Of a stretch of 64,000 nucleotides of DNA, positions 25,812 through 41,210 are shown piece after piece (position 1 is the stretch's first letter; each line of letters starts with the position of its first letter). Both the position numbers and the translations under genes were made by a program. The notes under the pieces were generated by a model, which searched no databases, was not told where the DNA came from, and worked only from the letters and a program-made list of their open reading frames with translations. The stretch is taken from the NCBI GenBank assembly GCA_900316795.1, contig ONEF01000002.1, positions 124,001 to 188,000 on the forward strand. The letters run 5' to 3'. This stretch comes from an uncultured Bacteroidales bacterium (GTDB lineage: Bacteria; Bacteroidota; Bacteroidia; Bacteroidales; UBA932).

Positions 25812-25900
25812 GGGCTCAGCGATGCCAGCTCCGGAGATCGCAGCCCCGGCGATGGAAGTTCCGGTGATGACCTCCCCGAGATCGCAGCTCCGGCGATGGT
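25812..25900. repeat. Degenerate 15-bp tandem repeat after htpG
   Basis: The motif AGYYCCGGNGAT recurs at 25827, 25842 and 25857, with a degraded copy near 25871 and another at 25886: a steady 15-bp period. The preceding GCTCAGCGATGCC (from 25815) looks like a related first unit. It is non-coding and begins within a few bases of the htpG stop codon. Confidence 0.65.
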
Positions 25901-25925
25901 GGGCTGTAACATCCTGATAGACAGC

Positions 25926-25974
25926 ACATCCTAAAAAGCACCCCCGCAAAAACGGCAGGTGCTTTTTAGGATGT
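25926..25974. terminator. Strong bidirectional hairpin terminator
   Basis: ACATCCTAAAAAGCACC (25926-25942) pairs perfectly with GGTGCTTTTTAGGATGT (25958-25974): a 17-bp stem with a 15-nt loop. It lies between convergent htpG and rhuM-family genes. Imperfect inverted arms (25891-25919 and 25981-26010) extend the symmetry outward. Confidence 0.8.
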
Positions 25975-25980
25975 ATTGAA

Positions 25981-26010
25981 ACTCAGCTACTTACAAGGCA
26001 CCATCGCCGA
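25981..26010. repeat. 30-bp 3'-end repeat, copy 1
   Basis: Begins ACTCAGCTACTTACAAGGCA and ends CCATCGCCGA. It matches 28041-28070 at 29 of 30 positions. It begins just after the stop codon of the RhuM-family gene on the minus strand (2 bp between), exactly as copy 2 adjoins the stop of higA (1 bp). The minus-strand sequence also resembles plus-strand 25891-25919 at about 20 of 29 positions. Confidence 0.85.
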
Positions 26011-26012
26011 CA

Positions 26013-26792
26013 TTACTCACTTGCTATCCTCTCAAGTATGTCCCTTGAACTGATATCCTTCATAAGTGTGAAGCCAAACCACTTCTTGCCCAAGTCCTTA
26101 ATTGATGCACCTAACCGCAACTGCGAACTTATTTGCCTGGTATAGACAGTGGCGCTCACATCACTCCCTCTTTTGTCGAGCAGAGAAAGAACCGAGTCAT
26201 CAACATAGTTATCAATCAGGGCTATAGAACACTTAGCCCTTCTAATAAGGTCTGATACAAACCGATAAGCGTCAAATATCTGCCCATTAAAGAATACTCC
26301 CTGAACTGGAGGCAATGAGGACTTAATAAAGAAATCAATTTGACCTTCAGTCTTTGAAACTCTTTCCTCTAATCGGCTTACCCTATTGTTGATAGAATAT
26401 CCTTTCAAAAGATACTCCTTCAATATACGATTAGCCCACTGCCTAAAATGAATTCCCCTTTCAGACTTAACTCGAAAACCTACAGAGATAATCATATCAA
26501 GGTTATAATACTCAATAATACGTGAAACCAATCGAGAGCCTTCATTTTGAACTGTCGCAAATTTTGCGACAGTTGGAATATGCCTCAATTCTTCTTTCAT
26601 AGCAGCATTAATATGCTTCCCAATAGTTTTTACGTCCCGGTCAAATAGCTCTGACATTTGTTGCCTATTAAGCCACACCGTATCTCCGACTAATCTGACC
26701 TGAATATTTACATTATCCCCAGGATTATAGAGAATTATCTCCTCGTTTGCTGGAATGAGGTTTGAATCAATATTATTCTTAATGCTCTTCAT
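26013..26792 (-). CDS. RhuM-family protein with internal deletion
   Basis: 259 residues. The N-terminal RhuM-type domain reads VRLVGDTVWLNRQQMSELFDRDVKTIGKHINAAMKEEL and YYNLDMIISVGFRVKSERGIHFRQWAN. The C-terminal part (IFDAYRFVSDLIRRAKCSIALIDNYVDDSVLSLLDKR) belongs to the phospholipase-D-like module of longer family members. In remembered homologues about 35-40 residues, including an HDRFLIID-like motif, lie between YTRQISSQL and GASIKDLGKKWF; here these two segments are joined directly in frame. The gene is therefore probably inactive in that module. Its 5' side touches repeat copy A and its stop touches the 30-bp repeat. Confidence 0.8.
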   Translation of the reverse strand: MKSIKNNIDSNLIPANEEIILYNPGDNVNIQVRLVGDTVWLNRQQMSELFDRDVKTIGKHINAAMKEELRHIPTVAKFATVQNEGSRLVSRIIEYYNLDMIISVGFRVKSERGIHFRQWANRILKEYLLKGYSINNRVSRLEERVSKTEGQIDFFIKSSLPPVQGVFFNGQIFDAYRFVSDLIRRAKCSIALIDNYVDDSVLSLLDKRGSDVSATVYTRQISSQLRLGASIKDLGKKWFGFTLMKDISSRDILERIASE

Positions 26793-26804
26793 GTCTTTTT
26801 ACCG

Positions 26805-26873
26805 CAAATCTACGCCCCAACCCCTCTCTCTACCAAGCCAAAACGTCAATTTGACCCGACACAATCCTGGAAT
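26805..26873 (-). repeat. Dispersed 69-bp repeat, copy A
   Basis: Aligns without gaps to copy B (about 49/69) and copy C (about 46/69). On the minus strand it runs from ATTCC(A/G)G..TTG to GTAGATTTG, 12 bp before the start codon of the RhuM-family gene. In one minus frame all three copies are open and stop just after Val-Asp-Leu. The outer end carries the near-palindrome CAATCCTGGAATTG. Confidence 0.8.
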
Positions 26874-26923
26874 TGTAAAAAAGTGCAGAAATAATATTCT
26901 ATTTTTGCAAAAAGTCGACGATT

Positions 26924-27727
26924 ATGAAAACTCTTACCCAACAAACTGCCTGCAGCATAAAAACAGCTTCCGGCCACAAAATAGCTTTTTGGCTTGTAAC
27001 ACTGATAACTTTGAAGTTTCTCTCTCTAACTCCAGCCAATGCTCAGGAGCAAGACACCATAGCTGTAGAAAGGTTCATCCCGGACTTGAAAAAGATAGAG
27101 AACATTGTCAAAAACGACACTGACCGTTACAACTCCCTCATGGACAGGTTCAACAGCTTGACAGTAACCATGGAAATGCTGGAAGACGGCCCTATCTCTC
27201 CCTTTACATTTGAAGAATCTGCCATAATCTACTACGGCTATGCCTTCACTGAAAAATACAACCCATACTGCAGCTACGATTCCTTAAGATTCTTCATCCA
27301 GCAAAGAGACTGGGAAAAAGCGGAACAAGCTGCACTGGAAGCACTTAAAGACAACCCGGTTTGTATCGAACTGCTGGAACATCTGATTTTGGCGGCCGAG
27401 CAGAGGCAGGATGAAGAAGTAGCTTCCAGAGCCTTTGGCCAGTACATCATCCTTCTGACAACCATATCCCGTTCAGGAGAAGGAAAGACTCCGGACTCAC
27501 CTCTATTTGTGACCAGAGTTTCAGATGAATACTCCATTCTCAGATCGATCGGAGCCTCCCAACTCAAAGGGCAATCTCTGATAGACACCCCTTCCGGCAA
27601 ATGCGACAAGATGGTTTTCATGCTTCCTATGGGAGACACAGACGGTGACGGCATAGAAAACGAAAAAGAATATACATTATACTTCAATGTAGGCCTACCA
27701 CTTGGCTGGTGGAGCAAACAGTTTTAA
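26924..27727 (+). CDS. Exported protein, DUF4919-like
   Basis: 267 residues. A hydrophobic stretch (AFWLVTLITLKFLSLTPANAQ) near residues 21-43 acts as a signal peptide after an unusually long polar start. The mature part is helical with the Bacteroidota DUF4919-like pattern: FTFEESAIIYYGYAF, a TPR-like segment (DWEKAEQAALEALKDNPVCIELLEHLILAAEQ) and a C-terminal YTLYFNVGLPLGWW. Function is unknown. It forms a pair with the next gene, 9 bp downstream, and the two are flanked by the putative cassettes. Confidence 0.65.
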   Translation: MKTLTQQTACSIKTASGHKIAFWLVTLITLKFLSLTPANAQEQDTIAVERFIPDLKKIENIVKNDTDRYNSLMDRFNSLTVTMEMLEDGPISPFTFEESAIIYYGYAFTEKYNPYCSYDSLRFFIQQRDWEKAEQAALEALKDNPVCIELLEHLILAAEQRQDEEVASRAFGQYIILLTTISRSGEGKTPDSPLFVTRVSDEYSILRSIGASQLKGQSLIDTPSGKCDKMVFMLPMGDTDGDGIENEKEYTLYFNVGLPLGWWSKQF

Positions 27728-27736
27728 CTACCCCCT

Positions 27737-28036
27737 ATGAACAAGGTAAGAATCACTGCAATACGCCAGACCACCTATCCGGATCTGATTGCAAAATATG
27801 AGAACCCTATCCAGCACACCTGCGATGTAAGGGAAGGGCAGACCTGGATTTCGGAAGACGGCCAGCGTCCGGAGGGAATGTGCCCTTCAGCCTGGGACTC
27901 AATGAAACCGTTTGTGGAGTCCCTGGCCAAAGGAGAAGGCAACTTCTTTGACGGCTGGATGAAAAACCCAATGAGCGCAATGATCAGCTGCAACGACGGC
28001 TTCCGCCCCTTTACCTTTTACCTGGAGGTTGTATAG
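27737..28036 (+). CDS. TIGR04076-like small protein
   Basis: 99 residues without a signal. The pattern HTCDVREGQTW, PEGMCPSAWDSMKPFVESLAKGE, and ISCNDGFRPFTFYLE matches the small TIGR04076-type proteins with conserved Cys residues and a C-terminal C-x-D-G-x-R-P. Function is unknown. It follows the DUF4919-like gene by 9 bp, and its stop lies 4 bp before repeat copy 2 of the 30-bp element. Confidence 0.7.
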   Translation: MNKVRITAIRQTTYPDLIAKYENPIQHTCDVREGQTWISEDGQRPEGMCPSAWDSMKPFVESLAKGEGNFFDGWMKNPMSAMISCNDGFRPFTFYLEVV

Positions 28037-28040
28037 TCTA

Positions 28041-28070
28041 ACTCAGCAACTTACAAGGCACCATCGCCGA
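28041..28070. repeat. 30-bp 3'-end repeat, copy 2
   Basis: ACTCAGCAACTTACAAGGCA followed by CCATCGCCGA; identical to copy 1 at 25981-26010 except for one base. It lies directly 3' of the higA stop codon on the minus strand (1 bp between). Confidence 0.85.
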
Positions 28071-28071
28071 A

Positions 28072-28437
28072 TCATCCCGCAAGTACTATTGCCGGAGAGA
28101 TATTTAGTTTTGAAGAGATGATCCTTGCCTGCTCAAAGGTAGGGTTGACCTTTCCTGATAAAATAGCACTCAGCCTTGGTGCTGTTATTCCGAGCATTGC
28201 CGCCATCTCCTTTTGAGTAATATTGTACTCAGCAATACGTGCATTGATTGTTTCCGACAGGCTGGGAAGCTCTATGGGAAAATGCTCTTTCTCATACTCT
28301 TCTACAAGAGCTGAAAGTAAATCCAGTTCAACAAGCCTCGGATCATCAGACGGTGTATCTTCCCCTGTCTCAAAAAAAAGAGCATCTATCCTTTTCATTA
28401 TGGCATTATATTGCCTCTCGTTTTTTATCTGTACCAT
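28072..28437 (-). CDS. higA: HigA-type antitoxin (XRE HTH)
   Basis: 121 residues from the ATG at 28437, which has an AGGAGG ribosome-binding site 6 bp upstream, overlapping the toxin stop region; the longer frame to 28464 is therefore rejected. The N-terminal half is helical and acidic. The C-terminal half is an XRE HTH (NARIAEYNITQKEMAAMLGITAPRLSAILSGKVNPTFEQARIISSKLNI). It lies directly downstream of a HigB-type toxin, the toxin-first order of higBA modules. It should neutralise the toxin and repress the operon. Confidence 0.9.
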   Translation of the reverse strand: MVQIKNERQYNAIMKRIDALFFETGEDTPSDDPRLVELDLLSALVEEYEKEHFPIELPSLSETINARIAEYNITQKEMAAMLGITAPRLSAILSGKVNPTFEQARIISSKLNISPAIVLAG

Positions 28438-28447
28438 GTTCTGCCTC

Positions 28448-28741
28448 CTATACTTTTGAAACATCTATCTTGTCATATTCCTTATGAGTTCCCATAAAAC
28501 GGATATATACCAGCCCCGGGATGAACTTGATTGCTGCTACCAACCGGTACCGATTCCCTTTTATGTTGAAAACAAAATGTTGATTTCCCACATAATCGAC
28601 TGAGTTAAAGTCATTCTTGATATCTGCGACAGATTTCCAATGCGCCCCACAGACCTTGATATACCATTCTGTCAAAGGCAACCTTGCATCAGAATGAACA
28701 GACCAAAAATCCCTCAAAGTTGATACAGCAATCACCCTCAT
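28448..28741 (-). CDS. higB: HigB-type mRNA interferase toxin
   Basis: 97 residues from the ATG at 28741; a TTG three codons upstream overlaps the promoter and is rejected. The sequence follows the HigB family: MRVIAVSTLRDFWSVHSDARLPL, TEWYIKVCGAHWKSVADIKNDFNSVDYVGNQHFVFNIKGNRYRLVAAIKF and the C-terminal IRFMGTHKEYDKID. Family members are RelE-like ribosome-dependent mRNA endonucleases. It is complete and apparently intact. It is followed by higA with a 10-bp gap. Confidence 0.92.
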   Translation of the reverse strand: MRVIAVSTLRDFWSVHSDARLPLTEWYIKVCGAHWKSVADIKNDFNSVDYVGNQHFVFNIKGNRYRLVAAIKFIPGLVYIRFMGTHKEYDKIDVSKV

Positions 28742-28747
28742 ACAACA

Positions 28748-28779
28748 CAAATTTATGAATTATTAAATTAATAACAAAA
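28748..28779 (-). promoter_or_regulatory. Promoter of higBA (leaderless layout)
   Basis: On the minus strand TTTTG (28779-28775), exactly 19 bp, then TAAATTTG (28755-28748): a near-ideal Bacteroidota promoter. Its -7 box ends six bases before the higB ATG, so transcription should begin at or very near the start codon. Confidence 0.75.
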
Positions 28780-28826
28780 TTATCCGAAAAATAATCGCCT
28801 AATCAGCACCATTTCATTCACTCGCT

Positions 28827-28895
28827 CAAATCTACAGCCCTAACTCCCTCTCCACCAAACCATCCGATAAAATTTACCCTATGCAATCCCGGAAT
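28827..28895 (-). repeat. Dispersed 69-bp repeat, copy B
   Basis: Ungapped match to copy C at about 52 of 69 positions and to copy A at about 49. Similarity to C extends further on the CAAATC side (ATTCACTC just before it on the plus strand). It lies about 85 bp upstream of higB. The near-palindrome at the other end is CAATCCCGGAATTG. Confidence 0.8.
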
Positions 28896-28984
28896 TGTAA
28901 AAAACTGACCAACTATTTTCAAGAAGAACGCAATACCAGGAAAGTGTTTCCTAAGCGAAGTAACAACCAAGCCATCCTTCTTTC

Positions 28985-29262
28985 CCAACCCAAAAACTCA
29001 AGCACCATCGGATCCTTTATCACCTCAGAAGGTGTCTCCGGAATCCTTTCTTTACGAGCAACCGCTAGAACAGCCTCCTTGTCATTACTCAGTAACAGCC
29101 TCTCATACAGCATTGAGTTTATCTGCCTCTCCAACTCTCTGCTCGTCCAGGCATTATTAACGGCCTCTAATTCATAATATTCTCTTTTAGAAGCATCTGA
29201 GATCTGTATTAGGCGCCGAGATTGAGCTCAGTTTAATTGGGAACGCAGTGCGTTCCCAATTG
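28985..29262 (-). pseudogene. DUF1016/YhcG-type nuclease gene remnant
   Basis: The minus strand encodes a well-kept core fragment, RRLIQISDASKREYYELEAVNNAWTSRELE followed by RQINSMLYERLLLSNDKEAVLAVARKER and SEVIKDPMVLEFLG, the middle part of DUF1016 PD-(D/E)XK nuclease-like proteins. Upstream, in a shifted frame, codons for GNALRSQL remain at 29236-29260, followed by a deletion. Downstream of EFLG the frame runs into unrelated sequence and stops; the nuclease domain is gone. There is no start and no catalytic region. Copies B and C of the dispersed repeat lie on its two sides. Confidence 0.8.
29235..29261. repeat. Perfect 27-bp palindrome within the DUF1016 remnant
   Basis: AATTGGGAACGCA, one base, then TGCGTTCCCAATT: 13-bp perfect arms. 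On the minus strand it overlaps codons for GNALRSQL of the degraded DUF1016 gene, so it may be accidental coding symmetry sharpened by mutation or a small inverted duplication. There is no U-run, so it is not a typical terminator. Confidence 0.6.
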
Positions 29263-29321
29263 GATATAAACAATAAAATTGACGACAAAATTTCAATTGC
29301 CTTACCCCAAATTCACTCCCG

Positions 29322-29390
29322 CAAATCTACACCCGCTCTACCCCCTCTTGCAAACCATCCGGTAGAATTTACCCTGTACAATTCTGGAAT
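29322..29390 (-). repeat. Dispersed 69-bp repeat, copy C
   Basis: Third copy, without gaps against A and B, upstream of the DUF1016 remnant on the minus strand and just beyond the terminator of the defence operon. The near-palindromic end reads CAATTCTGGAATCG. Confidence 0.8.
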
Positions 29391-29405
29391 CGTCCGGAAA
29401 TGAAC

Positions 29406-29435
29406 AAAAAAACAGGGAACCAAGAAGGTCCCCTG
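29406..29435 (-). terminator. Rho-independent terminator of the defence operon
   Basis: On the minus strand CAGGGGACC, 5-nt loop, GGTTCCCTG (9-bp stem with one G-T pair) followed by seven T. It lies 26 bp after the thpR stop codon and marks the end of the minus-strand operon starting near 40.8 kb. Confidence 0.88.
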
Positions 29436-30155: not shown

Positions 30156-31097
30156 TTACTTCAATTTTTGAACAGAGTTTTTCAATACGGAAATAAAGCG
30201 CTTTGTTATTTCCAAGTCAACCTCAAAAATTCGGGGCCACTCATCTTCAGGATTATTATAGCCACCCTTTAACTCTGTCCAAATTGATTTTGCTCTGTAT
30301 CCTTCCTTATCATCCCATATAAGACCAGGTCCAAAATTATTGTCTATCGTTTCTCTATCTTTCAAGAAATGCTGGAAAATCTTAATATTATCTTCTTCTG
30401 CTCCCTTCCCTTTATCTATACGAAGCTCGCATCTAACATTGTCCTTTGTTACCCACAGATGCCATTGAATACCCCCAATTCCAGCGCCACTTGAGATAAA
30501 ACTATCTTTTGTAGCTGAAGAGTTCTTGAAAGCAGTCATAGATTTATCTGTCTTAAACACCTTAAGAAGACCAGTCCAGAATTTGAAACGCATTTCATGC
30601 CTTCGGGTTTCATTACGCTTAATTTGTCCTTTCTCTCTGGCCTCTACAGAAGGAGCAGCTTTAATTGTAAACAATGGTCCTAACGGAGATTCTCCTATGC
30701 GGATAAGCTGCAACTCCAGTAAATAAAAATCGCAGCCACTATCTGTCTCATTAAGCCAATCAACGGCATCTACATGTTCTTGCTTAGCTCTCTCCACTAT
30801 CCATATGGCCACCTTAGCATCGAATGCCGTACGATAAGTAATTATCTTGCCTAGATGATCATGATTTGAGTCCCCGAACTGATTCTCTATTACAACGCCA
30901 GAACCATCTTCCAACTCGGCCTGAATATCTACTCGAAAGTTTTCAGAAGTTTGCTCTGTTGATGGATTAAAAAGCTTAACATTAATGGCCTCAGAAACAT
31001 AATTCAAATTCTCTGCAAGCCACGGTGTAAACTCTCCAGATTCACTCTTAAAATGGTTTCTGAGATTAATTGTCTCTATTCTTTCAATCGTTTTCAT
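30156..31097 (-). CDS. DUF4268 protein with nuclease-like N-terminal domain
   Basis: 313 residues. The N-terminal half (FTPWLAENLNYVSEAINV, VDIQAELEDGSGVVIENQFGDSNHDHLGKIITY) has the arrangement of a restriction-endonuclease-like fold with D...E-x-Q in place of D...E-x-K. The C-terminal half (EMRFKFWTGLLKVF, WHLWVTKDNVRCELRI, FGPGLIWDDKEGYRAKSIWTELKGGYNNPEDEWP) is DUF4268. Such proteins are frequent in defence islands; the exact action is unknown. It is 88 bp downstream of the broken DUF262 gene on the same strand. Confidence 0.8.
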   Translation of the reverse strand: MKTIERIETINLRNHFKSESGEFTPWLAENLNYVSEAINVKLFNPSTEQTSENFRVDIQAELEDGSGVVIENQFGDSNHDHLGKIITYRTAFDAKVAIWIVERAKQEHVDAVDWLNETDSGCDFYLLELQLIRIGESPLGPLFTIKAAPSVEAREKGQIKRNETRRHEMRFKFWTGLLKVFKTDKSMTAFKNSSATKDSFISSGAGIGGIQWHLWVTKDNVRCELRIDKGKGAEEDNIKIFQHFLKDRETIDNNFGPGLIWDDKEGYRAKSIWTELKGGYNNPEDEWPRIFEVDLEITKRFISVLKNSVQKLK

Positions 31098-31185
31098 ATC
31101 AAATACTATTCTATTCTTTATATCGTAAAGATACGTCCCATATAACCTTGTTATTAACGTTTAGTTCTACTATTTCAAAACAAGA

Positions 31186-32880
31186 CTAACGCAATTCCCA
31201 CTTATCAGCAAAGATATCGATTAATGATGTTTGCCTATTCTCCACAACAGTAGGAGTCCATACGTCTTCGTTCAATACACCTGTAGTTAAGGTATAAGAA
31301 CTTGTGCCATTTTTAGACTTAAAATACTTCTCTTTCTTCTCTTCAAAATCATAGTTTTGCGCAGAAGAATTGATTCTTTTATTTAACGGAACAAGGTTCC
31401 CTATTTTGTGAATCCACTCTTTATGTTGCTCTTCCGTCCAATTTTTAGCCCAACCACTATCTGCATACATTGTTTGAGGCAAAACATGCTCGATTGAAAA
31501 AACTTTAGAGTCATATGAGGCGGATCCGTCAGAAACAAATGAATCAAGTCTTAGAATTAGATAATTCCTTTTTTTTGACGGCATATTATAAATATCTCCA
31601 TTTAAGTATCTTAAGAAGACATCCTTTTCCTCTAAGGTTAAATTCAATCTCGAACCATTATAACCAGATGAACTGTTACAAGATTCTAATTCTTCTAAAA
31701 TCTCAGCATACCTGGCAATTCTATGATTAACATCCCAAGAAGCTGTCCTCATAAAAACAGCAAGCCTTTCTAACTTTAGCAGAAAAGAATAAAAAGCATC
31801 TGTATTTGAAAAACATTTTATATAGTAACTCATAGCAACAGGCAACCAATCAGTATTGTCTATCTTATTAAGCCATTTCAAAATACCATTGACTTTGTCA
31901 GCATTATCGGCAGACTGATAACCATTATTTTTTATACAATCATAGGCACCAGAATACTTAAACAAGGTATTATCCATAAATGCCTTGGCCTTGGAAGGAG
32001 TCAGGTCATTAATAATGGATTCATTATATTCTTCTTGAATAGACTTCCTTGGCTTATTTTTCAGACGGATCATTCGTATTTGTCCAAGAAGATCATTAAA
32101 ACCATCTCGTGTTAAGTCCACCTCAGTATCTTCCCATTTCTTCGTATAACCAGGTCTATCATTCTCAGATAAAGCACCTATAACAACAGACTTGATAATA
32201 TCGCCTGGAAGAAGACTTAATCCCCTGGTATTCAATACAGAGAAGATTCTATATGCCGATATCATATCAGGTGTTGCAACTATTACAAGAAAACAATTAC
32301 TTACTAAGAACTTTGTGAAATTGTAAATAGAACTTTCATTATCAAACCTGTTAGAAACTAGATCTGATAACTCTTTTGTATTCTCAGCAATATGCTTTTC
32401 AGATTCTGAATTAAACATCTCAGACTTAATACTAAGAAGTTCATCCAGTTTTCCGTCTTGAATATAATACTTGAAAAAAGATCTCTCACGTTCTCTTATT
32501 GTCAAACGAGGGAAAGAAGGAAGATCCTCAAGTTCATTCCCTTCTTCCAAAATATATTTAGTCAGTAAACCTTTTCGGTAAGAATCACTGAGTTTATCAC
32601 GTTAAACAGATAAAAGAATTGTTAATGTTGTCAGACGTTGTTGACCATCAATAACTTCAGAACGTGGTTTCCCTTCCTCTTTTATCAAAACTATGCTTCC
32701 AATAAAATAGGTCTCATTCCCGCTTCCAGAATTGAACGTAGTAAAAATATCATCAAACAACTCATATGCTTGTTCTGTGTTCCAAGCATAAGGACGCTGA
32801 TAAGGAGGAATAAAAAACTGGAAATCTTTACTAAAGACATTGCTAATGCTGTATTCCTTTGCTGTGATTTTAGTACTCAT
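31186..32880 (-). pseudogene. DUF262-DUF1524 protein gene (GmrSD-like) split by one stop codon
   Basis: The minus-strand frame from the ATG at 32880 encodes a DUF262 domain (FIPPYQRPYAWNTEQAYELFDDI, GSIVLIKEEG, EVIDGQQRLTTLTILLSV), then a TAA at 32602-32604. The same frame continues without shift (RDKLSDSYRKGLLTKYILEEGNELEDLPS) to a C-terminal DUF1524 HNH-like domain (FSIEHVLPQTMY, GNLVPLNKRINSSAQNYDFEEKKEKYF) ending at 31186. The whole would be 565 residues. GmrSD-type proteins of this architecture use NTP through DUF262 and cleave modified DNA through DUF1524. One substitution (for example TTA to TAA) explains the break, so the allele is recent, or the base is an error. Confidence 0.85.
32602..32604 (-). 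other. In-frame TAA interrupting the DUF262-DUF1524 gene
   Basis: The codon follows ...LTILLSV in the minus frame; both flanking parts read in the same frame and join into one coherent protein. No alternative ATG lies close downstream, so the second part would need reinitiation or suppression to be translated. Confidence 0.85.
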
Positions 32881-32956
32881 TGCCTCAATATTTAAAAAGT
32901 TGATAAAAAGGAATTATATATTATGGTATTATTAATATGATACTTTAGACGCATTA

Positions 32957-35900
32957 TCAGGCACTTAAATAAGTCATATTATTAGGGATTATTACATTAT
33001 GTATATTGTCTATGTATTTGGCGAGCTGGACAAAGTACAAGTTGAACACATCTAGACGCTCAGTAAATGGAGCGTCGTTGGCTACTATCTCCTTGGTTAT
33101 ATCTCCATTCTCGCAAACATAACTGATAATAGTCATAAGGAATTCTTCCTGGTCTGAGTTCAGTTGAGCTCCAGAAATGAATTCACCGAACTTTCTGACC
33201 GCCTCTTTTCGGTCTATTCCAATAAGGGAACGGATAAATGCGCCAACATTGGAACCACAAGCCATATCGGTTGTAAACTTGTCATAATCGTCTTTATTGC
33301 CAAGTTCTTCCCAGAGGATCCTTTCGAGTTCCTTTATATCAGTCTCTGTAAGTTGCTGAAGGTTGTAGATTTTGTCCAGCACAGGAAGCTTTCTGTTAGC
33401 TGCAAGGAAATCCATAACCTTTTGCTTGTAGCTGACTCTTGGCAGCACACCTTCTCTTTCGCCCTCGTAGGTTATAACATCTTCTATATCAACAATAAAA
33501 CTCTTGCCTTTTTCTCCCAGAAGGAACTTCATAAGATCTCTAAGGTCTTTCCTAACCTTCTCTATCCATTGGAGAGAAATGTTCTCCCATGCAACAGGAG
33601 ATAAGACCTCTTTAATAGTTGCCATCTTTGCCTGGACTTGAGGAAGAGTGGCTTTTTCCTGAAGTTTATCCGCTATCAACTGAATTCGTTGAGCGCATTT
33701 GTCTGAATTAACATCCTCACTTAAGAGACCAAGTTCTACCGTCAAGGCAAGAACGTCGAATTTCTTGGCATTCTCCTCCAGAGTATTTTTAGGAAGCAGT
33801 GGAGCAATATCATTTTTCAGAGACAGTACATCCAGGTCAGAAATATAAACCCATGAATCCGGATCTTTGAAATGGCTTACAGCCTCCCACCTCTCCCTTA
33901 CGGAAATATGGTTATCTGACAAAACAGAAACTTGCTCTCTAAGAAGCTGTTTCAACTCGTCATGCAAACTCTTTGCAAAGGAATCTTCTTGCCATTTCTG
34001 ATGCTGCAGATGGAATGCAATGTCTGTCCTCAGTGCAAACAGTCGTTCTGTAAGCGAAGGTATACGAGGTGAAATATCTTTGCCGTCCGGATGACTGTCG
34101 AAATACTCGAAATTACGGCACCAGTCAAATATGTAGAAACACTCCTTGTCTTTTCCACAACCAAAGATATTCTCGCTCAACCTCGTACCACGGCCAATCA
34201 TCTGCATAAATTTGATTTTGCTCTTTACAACCTTGAAGAACACCAAATTCAAAACATCGGGCACGTCTATTCCTGTATCGAGCATATCAACAGATACCGC
34301 AATTTGAGGATCTTCGTCTCTGATTTCAAACTTTTCAATCAGGTCCTGAGAATATGTCACATAGTTATCTATCAAAGCGCAGAAACTCGAGCCATATTCC
34401 GGATAAAGGATATTGAAACGATTTACAATCAACTCTGCATGCCTGTGGTTGTATGCAAAGATAATTGTCTTGCCTATTCTTTCCCCGCTCTGCACTTTCA
34501 AGCCTGTTGTCATCAAGTCCTGCAAAACTGCATCAACAGTATCCTCATTGAAAATGTAGCTGAAAATCTCGTTGCTTAATATATCTCTATGATACTGTTC
34601 GGAGTTCAAATCCAGAGCCTTGCGTGTTTGTTCATACTCCCACACAATTTCCATCTGTTTCTTTTCTTCATCAGACAGGTTGTTGTACTTGATTCCTTCT
34701 TTTAGTATCATTGAGCCTCTCTTGAATCCATGATAATTCACGAGATAGCCATCTGCTACTGCATCTTCTAGTTCGTATGCATAGTTCGGCTGTCCCTGCT
34801 CCATTTCAAAGACATCATAAGTGCTCTTGTCCACTTCGTCACGAGGAGTTGCCGTCAAGCCCAGCAACATTGAATCAAAGTAATTGAAGATAGCCCCGTA
34901 TTTTCCAAAGATGCTGCGATGAGCTTCATCTATGATTATCAGATCAAATCTTCCTACAGAGAACTGCTTTTCATCTGTGTCTATGTAGTTTATCATTGTC
35001 TGGTATGTGGACAATACTACACGTGCATTAGTATCTTTTTCACTTCCGGCTTCACTGAGGACACATGTTGTTGTATTTGGCAAAAGCTTCACAAAGTTCT
35101 TGTGCGCCTGGCTTACAAGGCTAATACGGTCTGCAAGGAACAAAACATTCTTTACCCAACCGTTTCTTGTCAGCACATCAACCAGCGATATGGCTACTCT
35201 GGTTTTTCCTGTTCCGGTTGCCATTACAAGCAAAGCTTTCCTGTGCTTTTTGTTGTAATGCTCGCAAACAGCCTTTATCGCCATTTTCTGATATGGACGG
35301 TCCGTGATGCTGTCTTTGGGCGCAAAGTCTGAAATATCGGCTCTACCTCGCTGCTGGATCATCAATTCTAGATCTTTTGCCGTATGGAAACTATACAGCC
35401 TGCGAGGTGGATATCCTAGCCCATCTATGATGTTTGTCTCAAATCCGTTGGTATAATAAATGACCGGTCTTACTCCATATTGTGCTTCCAAACAATCGGC
35501 ATAAAGTTCTGCCTGATGCTTTCCTTTTATTGGAGATACGGCTGTCTTTTTGGCTTCAACCACAGCAAGAGGCAATCCATTTCCTCCGAAAAGGACATAG
35601 TCTGCATATCCTAAACCTTCAGAGTTCGGCATACCAACCAACTCCACCTCTATGCATGCTTTCAGCGGCTGAATAGCTCCTTCCACAGAAAGCACTTCCC
35701 ATCCAGCTTCCCGAAGCATCAGGTCTATAAACATCTTTCTTGTTTCCGCCTCTGAGATATCTGGATTTGACATCTCAACGACCGGTTCAGGGGATGAAAC
35801 CACCTCTTTATCTGCCGACGCGACAAGAGGATCTGAAGACTTCACGGAAACTGTATCAGGAACAGTTATTGAAATTTCTGCAAACCTTGGAATCAAAGTT

Positions 35901-36301
35901 TTATCAAATGGAGCAACCTTCGGCACTACTCTAAGTTTGAGAAGTATAGCTCCTACTACATCATAGATGTTCAACAATGAAAAGAAGGATTCTTTCTTAC
36001 TCACATCCCCTGCGTGAGCACCTCTATTACCGACCTTCCTGACATAATGAACAGCCATCATCACTTTATCATCAGCGATGAATTCTTTGAACGGCTCTCC
36101 ATCTACAAGCTCAAATAGCGACACCCTTTCAGGAACCTCAATGTTCTTCATCAGGTACAGCGACCTTACAACATACTCCAAAGCCATTCTTGCATTGATA
36201 GCAGAGAAATTCGGATTGCTGTACTGACATTCCTCAGCGGCTGAACAGAACTTGTATAGTTCATCAAGGCCTAATTCTCGTATGTAGTCAAAGTTTCTCA
36301 T
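32957..36301 (-). CDS. hsdR: Type I restriction endonuclease subunit R
   Basis: 1114 residues. Residues 1-125 are a DUF4145-like helical domain; about 180-290 form the HsdR nuclease domain with YADYVLF (Asp near 234) and VVEAKK (Glu249/Lys251); Walker A MATGTGKT is at 360-367 and the DEAH box IIIDEAH at 455-461, followed by SF2 helicase motifs (LGLTATPRDEVD, GIDVPDVLNLVFF, MIGRGTRLSENIFG). All key residues appear intact. The subunit translocates and cleaves unmodified DNA with HsdM and HsdS. It is 11 bp downstream of the small membrane protein gene in the same operon. Confidence 0.95.
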   Translation of the reverse strand: MRNFDYIRELGLDELYKFCSAAEECQYSNPNFSAINARMALEYVVRSLYLMKNIEVPERVSLFELVDGEPFKEFIADDKVMMAVHYVRKVGNRGAHAGDVSKKESFFSLLNIYDVVGAILLKLRVVPKVAPFDKTLIPRFAEISITVPDTVSVKSSDPLVASADKEVVSSPEPVVEMSNPDISEAETRKMFIDLMLREAGWEVLSVEGAIQPLKACIEVELVGMPNSEGLGYADYVLFGGNGLPLAVVEAKKTAVSPIKGKHQAELYADCLEAQYGVRPVIYYTNGFETNIIDGLGYPPRRLYSFHTAKDLELMIQQRGRADISDFAPKDSITDRPYQKMAIKAVCEHYNKKHRKALLVMATGTGKTRVAISLVDVLTRNGWVKNVLFLADRISLVSQAHKNFVKLLPNTTTCVLSEAGSEKDTNARVVLSTYQTMINYIDTDEKQFSVGRFDLIIIDEAHRSIFGKYGAIFNYFDSMLLGLTATPRDEVDKSTYDVFEMEQGQPNYAYELEDAVADGYLVNYHGFKRGSMILKEGIKYNNLSDEEKKQMEIVWEYEQTRKALDLNSEQYHRDILSNEIFSYIFNEDTVDAVLQDLMTTGLKVQSGERIGKTIIFAYNHRHAELIVNRFNILYPEYGSSFCALIDNYVTYSQDLIEKFEIRDEDPQIAVSVDMLDTGIDVPDVLNLVFFKVVKSKIKFMQMIGRGTRLSENIFGCGKDKECFYIFDWCRNFEYFDSHPDGKDISPRIPSLTERLFALRTDIAFHLQHQKWQEDSFAKSLHDELKQLLREQVSVLSDNHISVRERWEAVSHFKDPDSWVYISDLDVLSLKNDIAPLLPKNTLEENAKKFDVLALTVELGLLSEDVNSDKCAQRIQLIADKLQEKATLPQVQAKMATIKEVLSPVAWENISLQWIEKVRKDLRDLMKFLLGEKGKSFIVDIEDVITYEGEREGVLPRVSYKQKVMDFLAANRKLPVLDKIYNLQQLTETDIKELERILWEELGNKDDYDKFTTDMACGSNVGAFIRSLIGIDRKEAVRKFGEFISGAQLNSDQEEFLMTIISYVCENGDITKEIVANDAPFTERLDVFNLYFVQLAKYIDNIHNVIIPNNMTYLSA

Positions 36302-36312
36302 AGACCAACATT

Positions 36313-36522
36313 TTATCTGTATCTATCGCTCTCTTCTCCCATCCATCCGAAAAAGCAAAGTACAAGGTATAGCGGCAGCAAGCCAAAGATTGCACTGATA
36401 ATTATCCCTTCCCAAGTAGGTAAATTCTTGGCCGCATTCTTAATCGCATAGAAGAACAGAAGGCAAAAGCCTCCAATCGCCAAGAGCATTATAATCAGAG
36501 ATAAACCACCGCCACCTTCCAT
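36313..36522 (-). CDS. Small two-helix membrane protein inside the type I R-M operon
   Basis: 69 residues from the ATG at 36522, one base after the hsdS stop codon, which implies translational coupling. Two hydrophobic helices (LSLIIMLLAIGGFCLLFFYAI and GIIISAIFGLLPLYLVLCFFGW) are separated by a short charged loop (KNAAKNLPTWE); the C-terminus is polar (MGEESDRYR). No family is recognised. Its place between hsdS and hsdR is unusual; it may tether the complex to the membrane or act as an independent effector. This is inference from position only. Confidence 0.75.
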   Translation of the reverse strand: MEGGGGLSLIIMLLAIGGFCLLFFYAIKNAAKNLPTWEGIIISAIFGLLPLYLVLCFFGWMGEESDRYR

Positions 36523-36523
36523 A

Positions 36524-37669
36524 TCATCCAAAGTATTTATCCATCGTATAGTCAAAGAGCTTCTGTGTCTGTGCAATGGATTGGTTTATGTTTTCTTTCT
36601 GCTTCTCTATTGCCTCTATCTTCATTGCAAAAGATTGCTGAAGAGCAATAGAAGGAAGTATCACGGCGAATGCTCTCAAAACATCCATTGATACTCTTGG
36701 CATTTTTGCTCCCGCCACCTTAACTGAAATATAATCAACAAAGGATTTGCTTCTAAGCAGATAAGCAAGAAATACCCTACCAAGCACTTTAGGATTTGGT
36801 TTAAGGGGTACAAGCTCAGAAGTAGCGTACCCAATAGCATCAGGTATAACCACCTTGTTCAAATATGGACGAAGCTTTGAGTATAGAACATTTGATGTGT
36901 CAAATGTTGTTATTGAGCTTCCTATTTCAGATGATGGCAATAGTATTCTTTCTATTACACGGCCCGTCTGCTGCTCTACCATATCCAGATTAAGAAGCCA
37001 ATAATGCCCTCTATAAGATGGGACTACTCCATCATATTGTTTTTGTGGCGCAACATTACTCAGGGCATCTGTCTTCCATCCTCTATCATTTTCCACAGGG
37101 TCTCCGAACATATCATAGAAGATGGATTGGGCAAGGGTATCAAGCTCTTTCAGTTGCTGTTTCTGCTTGTCTATCACATCTGTCAAAAGGTCAAGCTCTG
37201 CCACAATGCGTTTCTGTTCTGAAAGGGATGGATATGAAAAAACTCCTTGTGAGATAGAAGCTTTATTAAGTGTAATGCCCATTACTGCCCGATTTGTTCC
37301 ATCCCATTTATAGCCCTTCAAGTAGTAGTAAATGTAATCAGCAAGAAAAGAAAAACCTTTCTTAGGAGTAAATGACATTATTGCTTCATTGGTAAATAAA
37401 GGCTTAGAAGTAATAGCAACCTTGCCCACAGATAGCTTAAAACTCATAATAACAGTTTCTTGGGGCAATAACTTTATACCTGTGTCAGAAACAGCCTTTT
37501 TAGAAATCTGTTCTTTTGAAGTACCAATATACTTTGAGACACCCATATCCCCTATAGACACCCAAGTCTCCGTACCATCCCAATAATCAGGGTTGTTCCT
37601 ACTTGGAGTTTTTCCCATCTGTAGCTCAAAGGCATCGGCCATCTTTATTGTTTTCCAACCTTTCTCCAT
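36524..37669 (-). CDS. hsdS: Type I restriction-modification specificity subunit S
   Basis: 381 residues with the two-repeat HsdS plan: first target-recognition domain (WVSIGDMGVSKYIGTSKEQISKKAV), central conserved coil (LSEQKRIVAELDLLTDVIDKQKQQLKELDTLAQSIFYDMFGDP), second recognition domain (WKTDALSNVAPQKQYDGVVPSYRG...MPRVSMDVLRAFAVILPS), and a terminal coil (QSFAMKIEAIEKQKENINQSIAQTQKLF). It defines the bipartite DNA target. Start lies 3 bp after the hsdM stop. A second hsdS copy or an invertase, which would allow target switching, is not seen nearby. Confidence 0.93.
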   Translation of the reverse strand: MEKGWKTIKMADAFELQMGKTPSRNNPDYWDGTETWVSIGDMGVSKYIGTSKEQISKKAVSDTGIKLLPQETVIMSFKLSVGKVAITSKPLFTNEAIMSFTPKKGFSFLADYIYYYLKGYKWDGTNRAVMGITLNKASISQGVFSYPSLSEQKRIVAELDLLTDVIDKQKQQLKELDTLAQSIFYDMFGDPVENDRGWKTDALSNVAPQKQYDGVVPSYRGHYWLLNLDMVEQQTGRVIERILLPSSEIGSSITTFDTSNVLYSKLRPYLNKVVIPDAIGYATSELVPLKPNPKVLGRVFLAYLLRSKSFVDYISVKVAGAKMPRVSMDVLRAFAVILPSIALQQSFAMKIEAIEKQKENINQSIAQTQKLFDYTMDKYFG

Positions 37670-37672
37670 AGC

Positions 37673-39166
37673 CTACAAGTATTTTTTTCTGAAGTCAGAC
37701 AACGCCTTAGTTATCTCCTTTTGCAGAGCGTCTATCCTGTCAAGAACTTTTTCAGGCTTTTCATACTTTACTTTAACCTTCTCAACCTCCTTGTACTTGT
37801 TGATGCTGAGGTCGTAATCGTTGGCTCTTATTTCATCCACAGGCACAAGGAAAGAGTGGTCTTTGCGGGTGCGCTTTTCCTCAGCTTTCAGGTTCTTAAA
37901 TCTTTCTACTATGTCAGGAATGTCGTTTTCTTCCACAGGATTTCTCTTTTGGTCCAATGAGAATCCGTCAGCCTTCATATCATAGAACCAAACCTTATCT
38001 GTTCCACCTGCATTGGTCTTGGTAAAGACAAAGATTGCGGTAGATACTCCCGAGTAAGGTTGGAACACTCCCGCAGGCATAGAAATAACGGCCTGTAATC
38101 GCTGATTATCTATAAGCTCCTTCCTGATGGACTTATGGCCTGTGGAGTTACCAAACAAAACTCCGTCAGGTACAATGGATGCGCAACGCCCTCCTATCTG
38201 CAACATTCTTACAAACAAAGCAAGGAAAAGGAGCTCTGTCTTTTTGGTCTTGGAAATGGCAAGAAGATTCTTGGCCACAGCTTCATAATCAAGACTGCCC
38301 GTGAAAGGTGGATTGGCAAGGCAGAGAGTATAGCGGCTCTCATCGGTGTTGTCTGTAGAAAGGCTGTCCTGATACTTGATGTCGGGGTTATCTACTCCGT
38401 GAAGCATCAGGTTCATAGCCCCTATCCTTAACATCGTGGAATCGGTGTCAAAGCCGTGCAGCATCTCGTTCCTGTAATGCTCGGAATTCTCCTTTTTAAG
38501 AAGCTCTTTCTTATAGTGGTCTTTGACATACTTGGCCGCTTCCACAATGAAGCCTGCACTACCCATAGCAGGGTCGCAAATTACATCCTTCAGATTAGGT
38601 TGCATAAGCTCCACCATCATACGGATAATATGTCTTGGAGTACGGAACTGACCATTGTTGCCGCTTGCAGCCATCTTGCCAAGAACATACTCATAGACAT
38701 CGCCCATAGTATCTCTGTTGTTCATATCAAGAGCATCTATGCCTTCAACAATCTTGACAAGTGTTCTTGGGCTTTGTATCAGGAAAGTAGCATTTGCCAT
38801 AAACTTGCTGTATGCCGATTCTTTACCTGTGTTTAGGTTCTTAATGAATATAAAAACATCCCTGCTTATGGTACGAAACATTGCTTCAGGTTCCATATTC
38901 TTGAATACACTCCAACGCAAGTTCTTGTATGGTACGTTTTTGTCTGAATCAGGGTTATGCCACATTCCATCCTTGAAAGTTGGTTCCTTAACCTTCACTC
39001 CTAAAGCATTTGCATTTGCTTCTTTTGTTCTTTGAGCATCATCCAACATCTTCATAAAGAAGAGATATGTCATCTGCTCAAGGATGGTTATAGAATTCGT
39101 GATACCACCTGTCCAGAAGGTATCCCATATTTGGTCTATTCGGTTCTTAATCTCGCCTGTTATCAT
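37673..39166 (-). CDS. hsdM: Type I restriction-modification methyltransferase subunit M
   Basis: 497 residues. The N-terminal helical HsdM domain (RIDQIWDTFWTGGITNSITILEQMTYLFFMKMLDD) is followed by the N6-adenine methyltransferase core: QFRTPRHIIRMMVELMQP, SAM-binding DPAMGSAGFIVEA at 198-210 and the catalytic NPPF at 285-288. With HsdS it methylates adenine in the recognition site. All motifs are intact. It is 19 bp downstream of the KAP NTPase gene. Confidence 0.96.
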   Translation of the reverse strand: MITGEIKNRIDQIWDTFWTGGITNSITILEQMTYLFFMKMLDDAQRTKEANANALGVKVKEPTFKDGMWHNPDSDKNVPYKNLRWSVFKNMEPEAMFRTISRDVFIFIKNLNTGKESAYSKFMANATFLIQSPRTLVKIVEGIDALDMNNRDTMGDVYEYVLGKMAASGNNGQFRTPRHIIRMMVELMQPNLKDVICDPAMGSAGFIVEAAKYVKDHYKKELLKKENSEHYRNEMLHGFDTDSTMLRIGAMNLMLHGVDNPDIKYQDSLSTDNTDESRYTLCLANPPFTGSLDYEAVAKNLLAISKTKKTELLFLALFVRMLQIGGRCASIVPDGVLFGNSTGHKSIRKELIDNQRLQAVISMPAGVFQPYSGVSTAIFVFTKTNAGGTDKVWFYDMKADGFSLDQKRNPVEENDIPDIVERFKNLKAEEKRTRKDHSFLVPVDEIRANDYDLSINKYKEVEKVKVKYEKPEKVLDRIDALQKEITKALSDFRKKYL

Positions 39167-39185
39167 TATTTCGTAGTTATCCTAA

Positions 39186-40607
39186 TTAACCAATATTATT
39201 ATTTATGCATTCGTAAAAATCTATCTTATTCGTAAGATAACTCAATCTTATTGGGTTATGATGATTATCATAGAAATTGAACGCTTGATTCAATAAATTA
39301 TAATCAATAAAGGAACTGCTGACAGGAAACTCATAAACGCCTTCTTCATTAATAGAAGACTTAAAACCTATATCTACATTAGAAAAATTATCTCGAAGAT
39401 TATAAAGGAATGACAGACCAGCTATTGTATAAGCCATCCTATGAACAATCATCTCATCCTTCGTTCTCTTAATATTAGCTGGCAATCTTTTCTCAATTTC
39501 ATCAATCAATTCTTGAATATTGAAGGCTCTCTCAACAATACTATTGTAGAACGAAGTATCTACGACTTTCCAATAGCAAAGAAAAAAGACTACATCAGAA
39601 AAAAGCAGATTGTTCGGAACAAATGATTGCATTGTCAATCTTGACAACAAGAACAGTTTGTTTGTTGCTCTCAAATTCAATTTAGCTGATGGCAAAAGCG
39701 CAGAAATGATACTGACGAAAAGGGCATAACCATCATTTCCTCCATAATATCTGTTACTTGTCAAGTCAGAAAACAATTTCTTAAAATTATGCTTATCCGC
39801 CAGATAATCGTAATATTTTGAAAAATCCGGTTCTGGGAGCGAATAATTCAAATCAATAAAACGCCTTAGATATTCTGAAGAGTCTATTTTATCAGAACCA
39901 TAATAACCTTGAACTGCAAACTCTAATTGTGTTTTGTTTACAGCTATTACGAAAAACAAATTAGGAATATCAAAAAGGTGCTTTATTCGTTCTAAAACTC
40001 TCACAGCAAACTCTGGATTACATCTATCCAATTCATCAACAAAAAAGACAACTGGAGATTTCTTTGAAGAAACTATATATTCAGATAACGCTTTCTTAAA
40101 ATCCGAAATCGTTTTCTTTTGTTTCTCAACTTCTTCAATATAATCATTAGCAAGGTTCCCCGCCTCATCTAAAATATCCGAATAAGAATCTACATTAATA
40201 CCTAGTTTAGCCTTGAGCAGACCTTTAAAAATAGACTTAAACGTTGCTACTAAAACTTTTCCACCCGCACATATAACCTTATTAAGCTTTTCATTATCTA
40301 AACCCATCTCCTTTAATTCCGCTATCATCGCAGCCAAAGGATCGTCAACATAATCGCACTCCCATGCATTAAAATAAATCGTTGAATATTGATTCTTCTT
40401 AAGAAGCTGTCGCCACATTTTTATGAAGGTTGTTTTACCAGAGCCCCATTCCCCGTCCAGAGACATAACACACCCTCTGTCTGAATCAGAAAATGCCTCA
40501 ATAACAGAAGTAAGTGCCTCGGCAAATTTCTGGCGATCTAGCTTACAATTAAGAAAAGGATTGTCAGCCGGTATTTCAATCTCCTTATTATCGTTGAATA
40601 ACATCAT
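39186..40607 (-). CDS. KAP-family P-loop NTPase
   Basis: 473 residues from the ATG at 40607; the upstream frame to 40670 overlaps the preceding gene further and lacks family similarity. Walker A is GEWGSGKT at about 52-59, and Walker B VVFFVDELDRCNPEF at about 186-200 carries the D-E-L-D-R of KAP ATPases, followed by LFFVIAVNKTQLEFAVQGYYG. Transmembrane insertions typical of many KAP proteins are not obvious apart from one hydrophobic stretch. KAP NTPases occur in phage-defence loci. This gene is visibly richer in A+T than core genes and heads the type I operon, with hsdM 19 bp downstream. Confidence 0.88.
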   Translation of the reverse strand: MMLFNDNKEIEIPADNPFLNCKLDRQKFAEALTSVIEAFSDSDRGCVMSLDGEWGSGKTTFIKMWRQLLKKNQYSTIYFNAWECDYVDDPLAAMIAELKEMGLDNEKLNKVICAGGKVLVATFKSIFKGLLKAKLGINVDSYSDILDEAGNLANDYIEEVEKQKKTISDFKKALSEYIVSSKKSPVVFFVDELDRCNPEFAVRVLERIKHLFDIPNLFFVIAVNKTQLEFAVQGYYGSDKIDSSEYLRRFIDLNYSLPEPDFSKYYDYLADKHNFKKLFSDLTSNRYYGGNDGYALFVSIISALLPSAKLNLRATNKLFLLSRLTMQSFVPNNLLFSDVVFFLCYWKVVDTSFYNSIVERAFNIQELIDEIEKRLPANIKRTKDEMIVHRMAYTIAGLSFLYNLRDNFSNVDIGFKSSINEEGVYEFPVSSSFIDYNLLNQAFNFYDNHHNPIRLSYLTNKIDFYECINNNIG

Positions 40608-40839
40608 ACAATTGTTTAGACAGTAAATTCTTAATCGCTGAGAAATTAGGAGATTGAGTTGGTTCTTCATCTGCGCCTAGCTCCTTGTCGTTGATGCTGT
40701 CGTTATAGGAATCTATATGGAGAAGCATAAGGCGGCAGGTGTGGGATGCGAACGGGCGGAAAGGACGGCAGGACTGAAGGGCTGAGCCTAGGAGCAATGG
40801 GCACAGCGCTACTATAACATAGACAAATAGCTTTTTCAT
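40588..40839 (-). CDS. Small lipoprotein-like ORF upstream of KAP gene
   Basis: 83 residues. The N-terminus (KKLFVYVIVALCPLLLGSALQSC) looks like a lipoprotein signal with cysteine at 24, followed by a short polar chain. It overlaps the KAP start by 20 bp in another frame, consistent with coupling, but no family is known and the tail has little coding character. It may be the first gene of the defence operon or a chance frame. Confidence 0.4.
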   Translation of the reverse strand: MKKLFVYVIVALCPLLLGSALQSCRPFRPFASHTCRLMLLHIDSYNDSINDKELGADEEPTQSPNFSAIKNLLSKQLYDVIQR

Positions 40840-41210
40840 AGCGGCGAGTCTATTTGTATGATTCTACGATTCTACTTGCGTTGTTTGCGGTTATACCTGC
40901 TTATTCCACGAATACGTTTGCGAAGTTTGCATTTTCGCTTGCGGTATTCGGGTTATCAAATTTAGGAAATAATCAGGTTTTTCACAAAATATATCTCTCG
41001 CGGGCAAAGTTATAGCGGCGTTTTGACGATTTCTGTCAATTTTGGTTGCGGGAGGTTGGCGGTTTCTGGAAAAAGCAGGAAATAGCGGATTGTACGGAGA
41101 ATTCCTGGATTGTATTTTTTTGTCCGGTGGGCTGATAAATTTACTGTTTGGCATCCGGTTTAAGAAAAAACTGTATACTATTGTAGCCATAAACTTTTAA
41201 AAAGAGTATT
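40840..41210. other. Divergent intergenic region at the outer edge of the defence island
   Basis: 371 bp between the minus-strand operon and the divergent DUF1016 gene. It contains an imperfect hairpin (CGAATAC at 40909-40915 pairing with GTATTCG at 40944-40950, with inner GCGAA/TTCGC pairing). A 99-residue minus frame in it has no coding character. Both promoters should lie here, though no ideal TTTG/TAnnTTTG pair was found. Confidence 0.4.

Follow-up and report, generated by a model that had tools for sequence, protein, structure and literature searches.

The window analysed here is a stretch of 64,000 nucleotides from contig ONEF01000002.1 of an uncultured Bacteroidales bacterium (GTDB lineage UBA932; assembly GCA_900316795.1), in which one short repeat precedes three different accessory genes. 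A repeat search of the window finds three ungapped copies on the minus strand, at 26794-26890, 28816-28912 and 29311-29407, the two outer ones being 67% and 73% identical to the middle one. A palindrome within this repeat, P2, also stands before dprA, comM and comF genes and before many other toxin-antitoxin and defence genes. A sequence-only reading of the window had described a 69-bp repeat in three gapless copies on one strand, preceding a RhuM-family gene, higBA and a DUF1016 remnant, and in all these points it is borne out. Pfam backs RhuM, HigB_toxin and the helix-turn-helix (HTH) antitoxin, and the remnant, a 71-aa open reading frame (ORF) without a Pfam match, was assigned through its likeness to the intact YhcG gene of contig C21 (G, C and L numbers are our handles for genomes, contigs and loci; the genome of the window is G000). 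The E-values listed below come from R1, a model of the whole module that was built from six copies in this genome, including these three.

26805..26885, minus strand: promoter module copy 1, upstream of rhuM (E 1.5e-20; copy used to build R1)
28827..28907, minus strand: promoter module copy 2, upstream of higBA (E 1.9e-20; copy used to build R1)
29322..29402, minus strand: promoter module copy 3, upstream of the YhcG/DUF1016 remnant (E 3.7e-20; copy used to build R1)
26013..26792, minus strand: rhuM gene, Virulence_RhuM PF13310 (Pfam)
28448..28741, minus strand: higB toxin gene, PF09907 (Pfam; start set at ATG 28741, where the ORF list has TTG 28750)
28072..28464, minus strand: higA antitoxin gene, HTH_3 (Pfam)
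28919..29310, minus strand: YhcG/DUF1016 remnant, N-terminal part missing and broken (ORF 28919-29134; likeness to the intact C21 YhcG judged by eye)

With at most three mismatches, a 19-base core of the repeat occurs twice in the window against 0.03 expected, and ten times in G000 against none for a reversed control; two of these ten carry three mismatches and may be due to chance. The same genome has the module, complete or almost so, at three other places, two on contig C21 and one on C26, and the genes that follow these encode MuF_C, intact YhcG/DUF1016 and a C39-ABC exporter. Integration linked to a tRNA was rejected because the window is without a tRNA.

Read along the minus strand, the module consists of a palindrome P1, the palindrome P2, a TTG at -33, a spacer of 21 nt and the box TAGATTTG at -7. 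P1 is of the type GTACGATTCCAGAATCGTAC in relatives and TTTTACAATTCCAGGATTGT in most copies of the own genome, and P2 is of the type GGTAAATTTTACC with the core GTMAATTTTACCGKWTGG. The parts of the three window copies are given below, with E-values from R2, a model of P2 plus promoter made from 33 sites (alignment A3).

26859..26878, minus strand: P1 palindrome, copy 1
26834..26855, minus strand: P2 and -33 TTG, copy 1 (E 1.9e-5)
26805..26812, minus strand: -7 box TAGATTTG, copy 1, 21 nt from TTG (from the sequence)
28881..28900, minus strand: P1 palindrome, copy 2
28856..28877, minus strand: P2 and -33 TTG, copy 2 (E 1.1e-12; in training)
28827..28834, minus strand: -7 box TAGATTTG, copy 2 (from the sequence)
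29376..29395, minus strand: P1 palindrome, copy 3
29351..29372, minus strand: P2 and -33 TTG, copy 3 (E 3.7e-14; in training)
29322..29329, minus strand: -7 box TAGATTTG, copy 3 (from the sequence)

A strict -7 box, [TC]ANN[TC]TTG at 19-21 nt after P2, is present at 26 of the 33 aligned sites compared with 0.38% of shuffled tails, a count that is partly circular since R1, in which the -7 box is modelled, supplied many of the 33 sites. P1 was called at 30 sites (at most 5 mismatches, search window from -34 to -20), and at 29 of them the distance from its start to P2 is 23 nt. The published consensus for promoters of sigma-ABfr is TAnnTTTG at -7 and TTTG at -33 (PMC7366714), and such a pair, about 20 nt apart, is found in most aligned sites and not at dprA. 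A promoter of sigma-ABfr type thus lies at fixed spacing below P2, with or without P1. The near-palindromic end that the sequence-only reading had noticed is real and corresponds to P1. The open frame that it saw in all copies, with a stop directly after Val-Asp-Leu, is likewise there, but has no coding meaning and arises from the -7 box, GTAGATTTG. That the repeat might be the conserved tail of an ordinary coding gene, which the same reading had named as the finding that would overturn it, was rejected because the conserved columns track the spacing of the promoter and the frame is merely the -7 box.

The R1 search covered 39 genomes of the genus, one of them the own genome, and the R2 search seven; both models were built from sites of the genomes searched, and their E-values are rough. 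At E<=1, R1 has matches in at least 32 of the 39 genomes, and among the matches listed are full-length ones in several close relatives; the copies of one relative are as strong as those of the own genome (E 1e-20). In relatives the module is found at YhcG, MuF_C, HigBA, ORF6N, HigA, LPD13 and other genes, and at C39-ABC exporters of a conserved ileS-cvpA locus (locus names by eye). P2 with the promoter, without P1, was found upstream of chromosomal genes. With R2 the own genome yields 16 sites at E<=10, of which 15 reach E<=0.1, and the six relatives yield 83 at E<=0.1, where about 0.6 would be expected by chance if the rough E-values hold; one match lies inside a gene (G000 C7:37972) and is likely false. 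The total of 99 sites corresponds to 8-20 per genome. That so few sites are found, and that they are concentrated in few gene classes, argues against a widespread, constitutively strong promoter without any special regulon. Such a promoter would agree with the housekeeping -7 and -33 elements of the window copies and most aligned sites, but not with the 22-nt conserved block above the spacer nor with the restriction of exact matches in GTDB contigs to few Bacteroidales/Bacteroidia metagenome-assembled genomes (MAGs), and we consider it highly improbable. The exact 23-base P2 pattern is present there in 23 stretches, all from Bacteroidales/Bacteroidia MAGs, of which 22 are named after rumen or omasum or carry a RUG isolate number and one is UBA3709. 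The exact 22-base pattern has no match in viral contigs, and a comparison of plasmids and phages with copy 2 alone (E<=0.01) gives no similar stretch; a phage or plasmid origin of the repeat was rejected on these results.

Each R2 site was given its first same-strand ORF by script; 12 of the 99 had none, and four of these were assigned by hand (one dprA, one DUF3575 and two YhcG remnants). Pfam was run on representative downstream proteins, and the sites were sorted by BLAST to these representatives, most of them named by Pfam, into classes that are our own: 44 sites precede accessory genes of toxin, defence or phage type (two of them remnants), 14 competence genes, seven each C39-ABC exporters, DUF6359 and DUF3575 genes, five nuclease genes, four Y1-like transposase genes, and 11 no gene or another one. 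The accessory sites comprise YhcG (12, and two remnants), Gp49-RelE (6), HigB (5), MuF_C (4), RhuM (3), ORF6N (2) and XRE (2), with single sites for HigA, AbiEi, RelB, AlbA_2, KilA-N, LPD13, a HicB-like protein without a Pfam match and an unknown protein whose match to DUF7760 is weak; RhuM, ORF6N, KilA-N, LPD13 and MuF_C are counted as accessory or phage-type, a toxin or defence role being unproven here. Toxin-antitoxin operons lie under the promoter motif of the competence genes, with HigB, HTH antitoxins, Gp49-RelE, RelB and AbiEi downstream. An R2 site precedes 12 of the 15 YhcG genes in the seven genomes (binomial 2e-23, assuming 13,000 genes), an enrichment test made for YhcG alone and with some YhcG sites in the R2 training set. 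The YhcG genes without a match are those of G000 C17, G004 C4 and G032 C12, the first of which (window 41211-42389) is preceded by a degenerate P2-like stretch that has 6 mismatches.

From the upstream sequence shared by unrelated toxin and defence genes, the sequence-only reading had concluded that these form a cassette or mobile-element family with a recognisable 5' end. The sharing stands, as do the interchangeable units described below and the frequent position of the P2-promoter part before accessory genes (44 of 99 sites by our classing), but to call the repeat just the 5' end of a single mobile element falls short. Because the P2-promoter also precedes chromosomal dprA, comM, comF, DUF6359 and DUF3575 genes, it is first of all a shared and probably regulated promoter. 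That its P2-promoter half lies before competence genes is a point absent from the earlier reading.

The 14 competence sites belong to ComF (5), DprA (4), ComM (3) and helix-hairpin-helix (HHH; 2) genes, and the DprA and ComM sites are not in the training alignment A3. P2 is found upstream of dprA in all seven genomes (four by R2, three by eye) and upstream of the comM operon in all seven (six by R2, one by eye), and ComF-like genes with an R2 site are known from five of the seven, one being in training and the other two genomes not having been examined. Pfam recognises DprA, ComM domains and Exo_endo_phos_3, and HHH_3 weakly. One operator-promoter motif before several transformation genes, the mark of a competence regulon, is thus found here at dprA, comM and the ComF-like genes. 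In Riemerella anatipestifer, transformation needs a helix-hairpin-helix protein, ComF, DprA and ComEC (PMC8459023). In our reading, which comes from sequence comparison, the 69-bp repeat controls a regulon, and natural competence in this Bacteroidales group is most likely what that regulon serves; we would put the probability of this reading at roughly 0.72.

Several observations weigh against it. R2 missed dprA in three of the seven genomes, and dprA, like the comM genes that the motif directly precedes, has P2 without a -33/-7 pair at 20-21 nt; none of the 14 competence-gene sites has P1. The ComF call depends on a weak Pribosyltran match, below the cut-off in the own genome, and leans also on features that we take to be those of the family, while the HHH_3 protein with an R2 site, present in two genomes, is below the Pfam cut-off in both. 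Although comEC and dprA genes are each present in all seven genomes, the motif lies within 400 nt upstream of comEC in none of them, and the DUF3575, DUF6359, C39 exporter and Y1 transposase targets have no proven role in competence. In five of the seven genomes comEC lies closely behind another gene (by eye), and comEC need not belong to every known competence regulon. The comEC match of G004 (C3:15745-16479, L244) contains one in-frame TGA, a break or an assembly error. Among the matches listed in our literature searches, which were partly aimed elsewhere, there is no operator of a Bacteroidales competence regulon, which is not proof of absence.

The regulon could also be real but respond to DNA damage (SOS) or another stress. 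DprA, nucleases and toxin-antitoxin genes would fit DNA stress as well, P2 is a dyad like LexA sites, and SOS motifs diverge among Bacteroidetes (PMC8565304). However, no recA, lexA, imuA or dnaE was recognised downstream of the 99 sites (recA and lexA of this genome itself were not looked up), comM and comF belong to competence, and the dyad of P2 differs from the Bacteroidetes SOS dyad CTAA-N5-TTAG (PMC8565304); the arrangement of that regulon, in which this dyad precedes lexA-, imuA- or dnaE-type genes, is not what we find. We regard an SOS or stress regulon as unlikely.

Returning to the architecture of the competence-type module, P1 is present at 18 of the 44 toxin/defence sites, at all seven exporters and at three of the four Y1-like genes. 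Since it is found at 0 of the 14 competence sites, it is toxin/defence, exporter and transposase genes, and not uptake genes, that typically have the exact 69-bp form; the three window copies belong to this P1 sub-class, so the sequence-only reading had described the form typical of cassettes. P1 may be a second operator, or a recombination site or one of the repetitive extragenic palindrome (REP) type. Three solitary P1 cores without a promoter are found in G000 (C16:239839, L022; C4:16003, L024; C21:54428, L019), one after rpsT, one intergenic and one where a MuF_C unit ends; paired or single cores occur at a place like the intergenic one in several relatives (by eye).

These solitary cores, and the likeness of P1 variants within a genome, are what would be expected if P1, or P1 with P2, were a repeat resembling REPs or miniature inverted-repeat transposable elements, spread by REP-associated tyrosine transposases (RAYT, Y1) of the genus and carrying an outward promoter that landed before genes by chance. 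Four of the 99 R2 sites precede Y1-like transposase genes (three confirmed by Pfam, the fourth, L045, without a Pfam match), and six Y1_Tnp genes lie above the cut-off in the own genome. This account is nevertheless quite improbable: the own genome has only about ten cores, the P1-P2 and -7 spacings are fixed, P2 precedes dprA and comM in seven of seven genomes, and none of the six own Y1 genes has a full P1-P2 module upstream (by eye), L054 having a P2-like stretch. The module or P2 is found upstream of Y1 genes in G003, G027, G032 and G017. Different Y1 (RAYT-like) genes follow recO (by eye) in G003 (L042), G027 (L041), G032 (L100) and G000 (L054), and in the first three the P1-P2 module lies upstream of them.

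The comM locus exists in several states. The motif is directly followed by comM in G011, G021 and G004; G032 has the order motif-RelE-XRE-motif-comM; and G000, G017 and G027 have motif-YhcG-comM, with 3 nt from the YhcG stop to the comM start. Among these last three, the motif-YhcG unit, which is without P1, is 99.4-99.7% identical over 1170 nt, whereas the comM start regions are only 77.5-77.9% identical. Between G017 and G004, whose comM genes are 90% identical, the difference starts inside or just after the motif and stops at the comM start codon. A near-identical promoter-YhcG unit is thus present in three diverged genomes, and its limits are the motif and the start codon of comM. Comparing occupied with empty loci, as the sequence-only reading had suggested for finding the borders of its cassettes, gave them at comM; a search for a 3' end that the cassettes have in common found one at MuF_C units only. 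Three such units have the repeat on both sides (G000 C21, G032 C11/C16), the right-hand one being partial in two.

Similar differences between occupied and empty loci are seen elsewhere. At the DUF6359 locus an unknown-plus-XRE pair lies between two motifs in G011, with G000, G021, G017 and G032 as comparison states; the SDR locus has RelE-XRE in G004 and G017 and no gene in G000, G021 and G032; and the neighbour of htpG is rhuM in G000, YhcG with MuF_C in G032, ORF6N in G017 and LPD13 in G011, the place being empty in G021 and one G028 contig. D5, a 31-nt repeat directly behind rhuM and higA (25980-26010 and 28040-28070; 97% identical), belongs to a larger, imperfect palindrome that surrounds a terminator-like hairpin (25891-26009). 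It was rejected as a 3' end of the cassettes and is flanking sequence, because a D5-like stretch lies on the 3' side of htpG in G004, where there is no rhuM.

Such cassette-like swapping at htpG, comM and SDR, the repeats at both ends of MuF_C units and the near-palindromic P1 could also point to a recombination site of gene cassettes (integron attC-like or Xer/pdif-like), in which P1 would be a near-palindromic core, its centre short, and a recombinase would carry single genes from site to site. Yet the conserved block continues through a promoter of fixed spacing, the P2-promoter precedes chromosomal genes without P1, and the comM unit was slotted in though it lacks P1. No integrase or cassette recombinase, intI included, was recognised among the ORFs read beside the arrays, though none was searched for. 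In our estimate a recombination site is an improbable explanation of the repeat.

We keep to a shared promoter that is probably regulated by competence and into which toxin and defence genes have repeatedly been slotted; these interchangeable genes appear to be wired into the DNA-uptake programme. A putative dimeric activator would bind P2, with P1 as a possible second site, and would turn the gene set on when cells become competent, so that the same switch would also activate HigBA, RelE, AbiE, YhcG, RhuM, MuF_C and other units. New units would be slotted in by transformation. The homology for recombination would lie in the conserved promoter, at times also in the next gene, and promoter-gene-promoter arrays would be left behind. 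More tentatively, and as a possibility that we hold with some doubt, the toxin-antitoxin and defence genes could be transformation-borne 'competence cassettes', whose promoter would both time their expression to uptake and provide landing homology at other competence promoters; the regulon would then be an insertion platform, and cassettes with P1 would form a sub-class that has a second regulator, or a recombination factor, of its own. Insertion appears as if caught midway: in related species the promoter may have no gene behind it, may be followed by one or another toxin/defence gene, or may stand with a unit slotted in before comM. P2 is a candidate operator for a Bacteroidales competence regulon, and the role of toxin and defence genes during DNA uptake becomes testable.

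We also would like to record some observations that stand apart. A protein with a TfoX N-terminal domain (PF04993; window 42746-43042, plus strand) adjoins the YhcG gene without a full motif and is one candidate regulator, and TfoX_N proteins are also neighbours of the ORF6N unit in G017 and of the HigBA unit in G031; TfoX/Sxy is a competence activator of gammaproteobacteria. The 9-mer CTCAGCGAT occurs about 40 times as often as expected, 17 times in the window (e.g. 25483, 25815, 30077) against 0.43 expected and 47 times in 152 kb of the own genome against 1.1; in six relatives its counts are likewise raised, 7-28 against 0.4-0.8. It is found on both strands, often behind a T-rich run, and resembles the word of a DNA uptake sequence; a literature search gave, by title, no known uptake word in Bacteroidetes. 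A defence island at 30156-42389 of the window comprises DUF4268, GmrSD-like, type I restriction R, S and M, KAP NTPase and YhcG genes.

Among known systems, integron and pdif cassettes consist of single accessory genes, often toxin-antitoxin genes, between repeated sites. Here, in contrast, the repeat is a promoter whose P2 part also serves chromosomal competence genes, and no recombinase is tied to it, none having been searched for. REP elements with RAYT transposases are short intergenic palindromes, and Y1 transposases are likewise present in this genome and in the regulon, but the copies here are few and their promoter architecture is fixed. The sigma-ABfr promoters of Bacteroidota share the -7/-33 elements and the spacing of about 20 nt (PMC7366714), to which the present module adds one or two conserved palindromes upstream of -33. 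Riemerella anatipestifer has the Bacteroidota set of ComEC, DprA, ComF and a helix-hairpin-helix protein, and the available excerpt of that work gives no shared promoter motif and ties in no toxin or defence genes (PMC8459023). A further parallel is toxTA of Haemophilus influenzae (HI0660/HI0659), a type II toxin-antitoxin operon that was acquired horizontally and belongs to the CRP-S/Sxy competence regulon (PMC6957337). That competence can control single toxin-antitoxin operons is already known, and the route by which toxTA came under CRP-S control is stated to be unknown to its authors (PMC6957337). There a toxin-antitoxin pair stands under a competence promoter; here such pairs stand under the motif of competence genes, as known from sequence. 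toxTA, however, is one operon in one regulon with CRP-S sites, whereas the present case involves about 15 toxin, defence and accessory families in seven genomes of another phylum, with another palindrome, P2, and with slotting that is visible at the level of the promoter.

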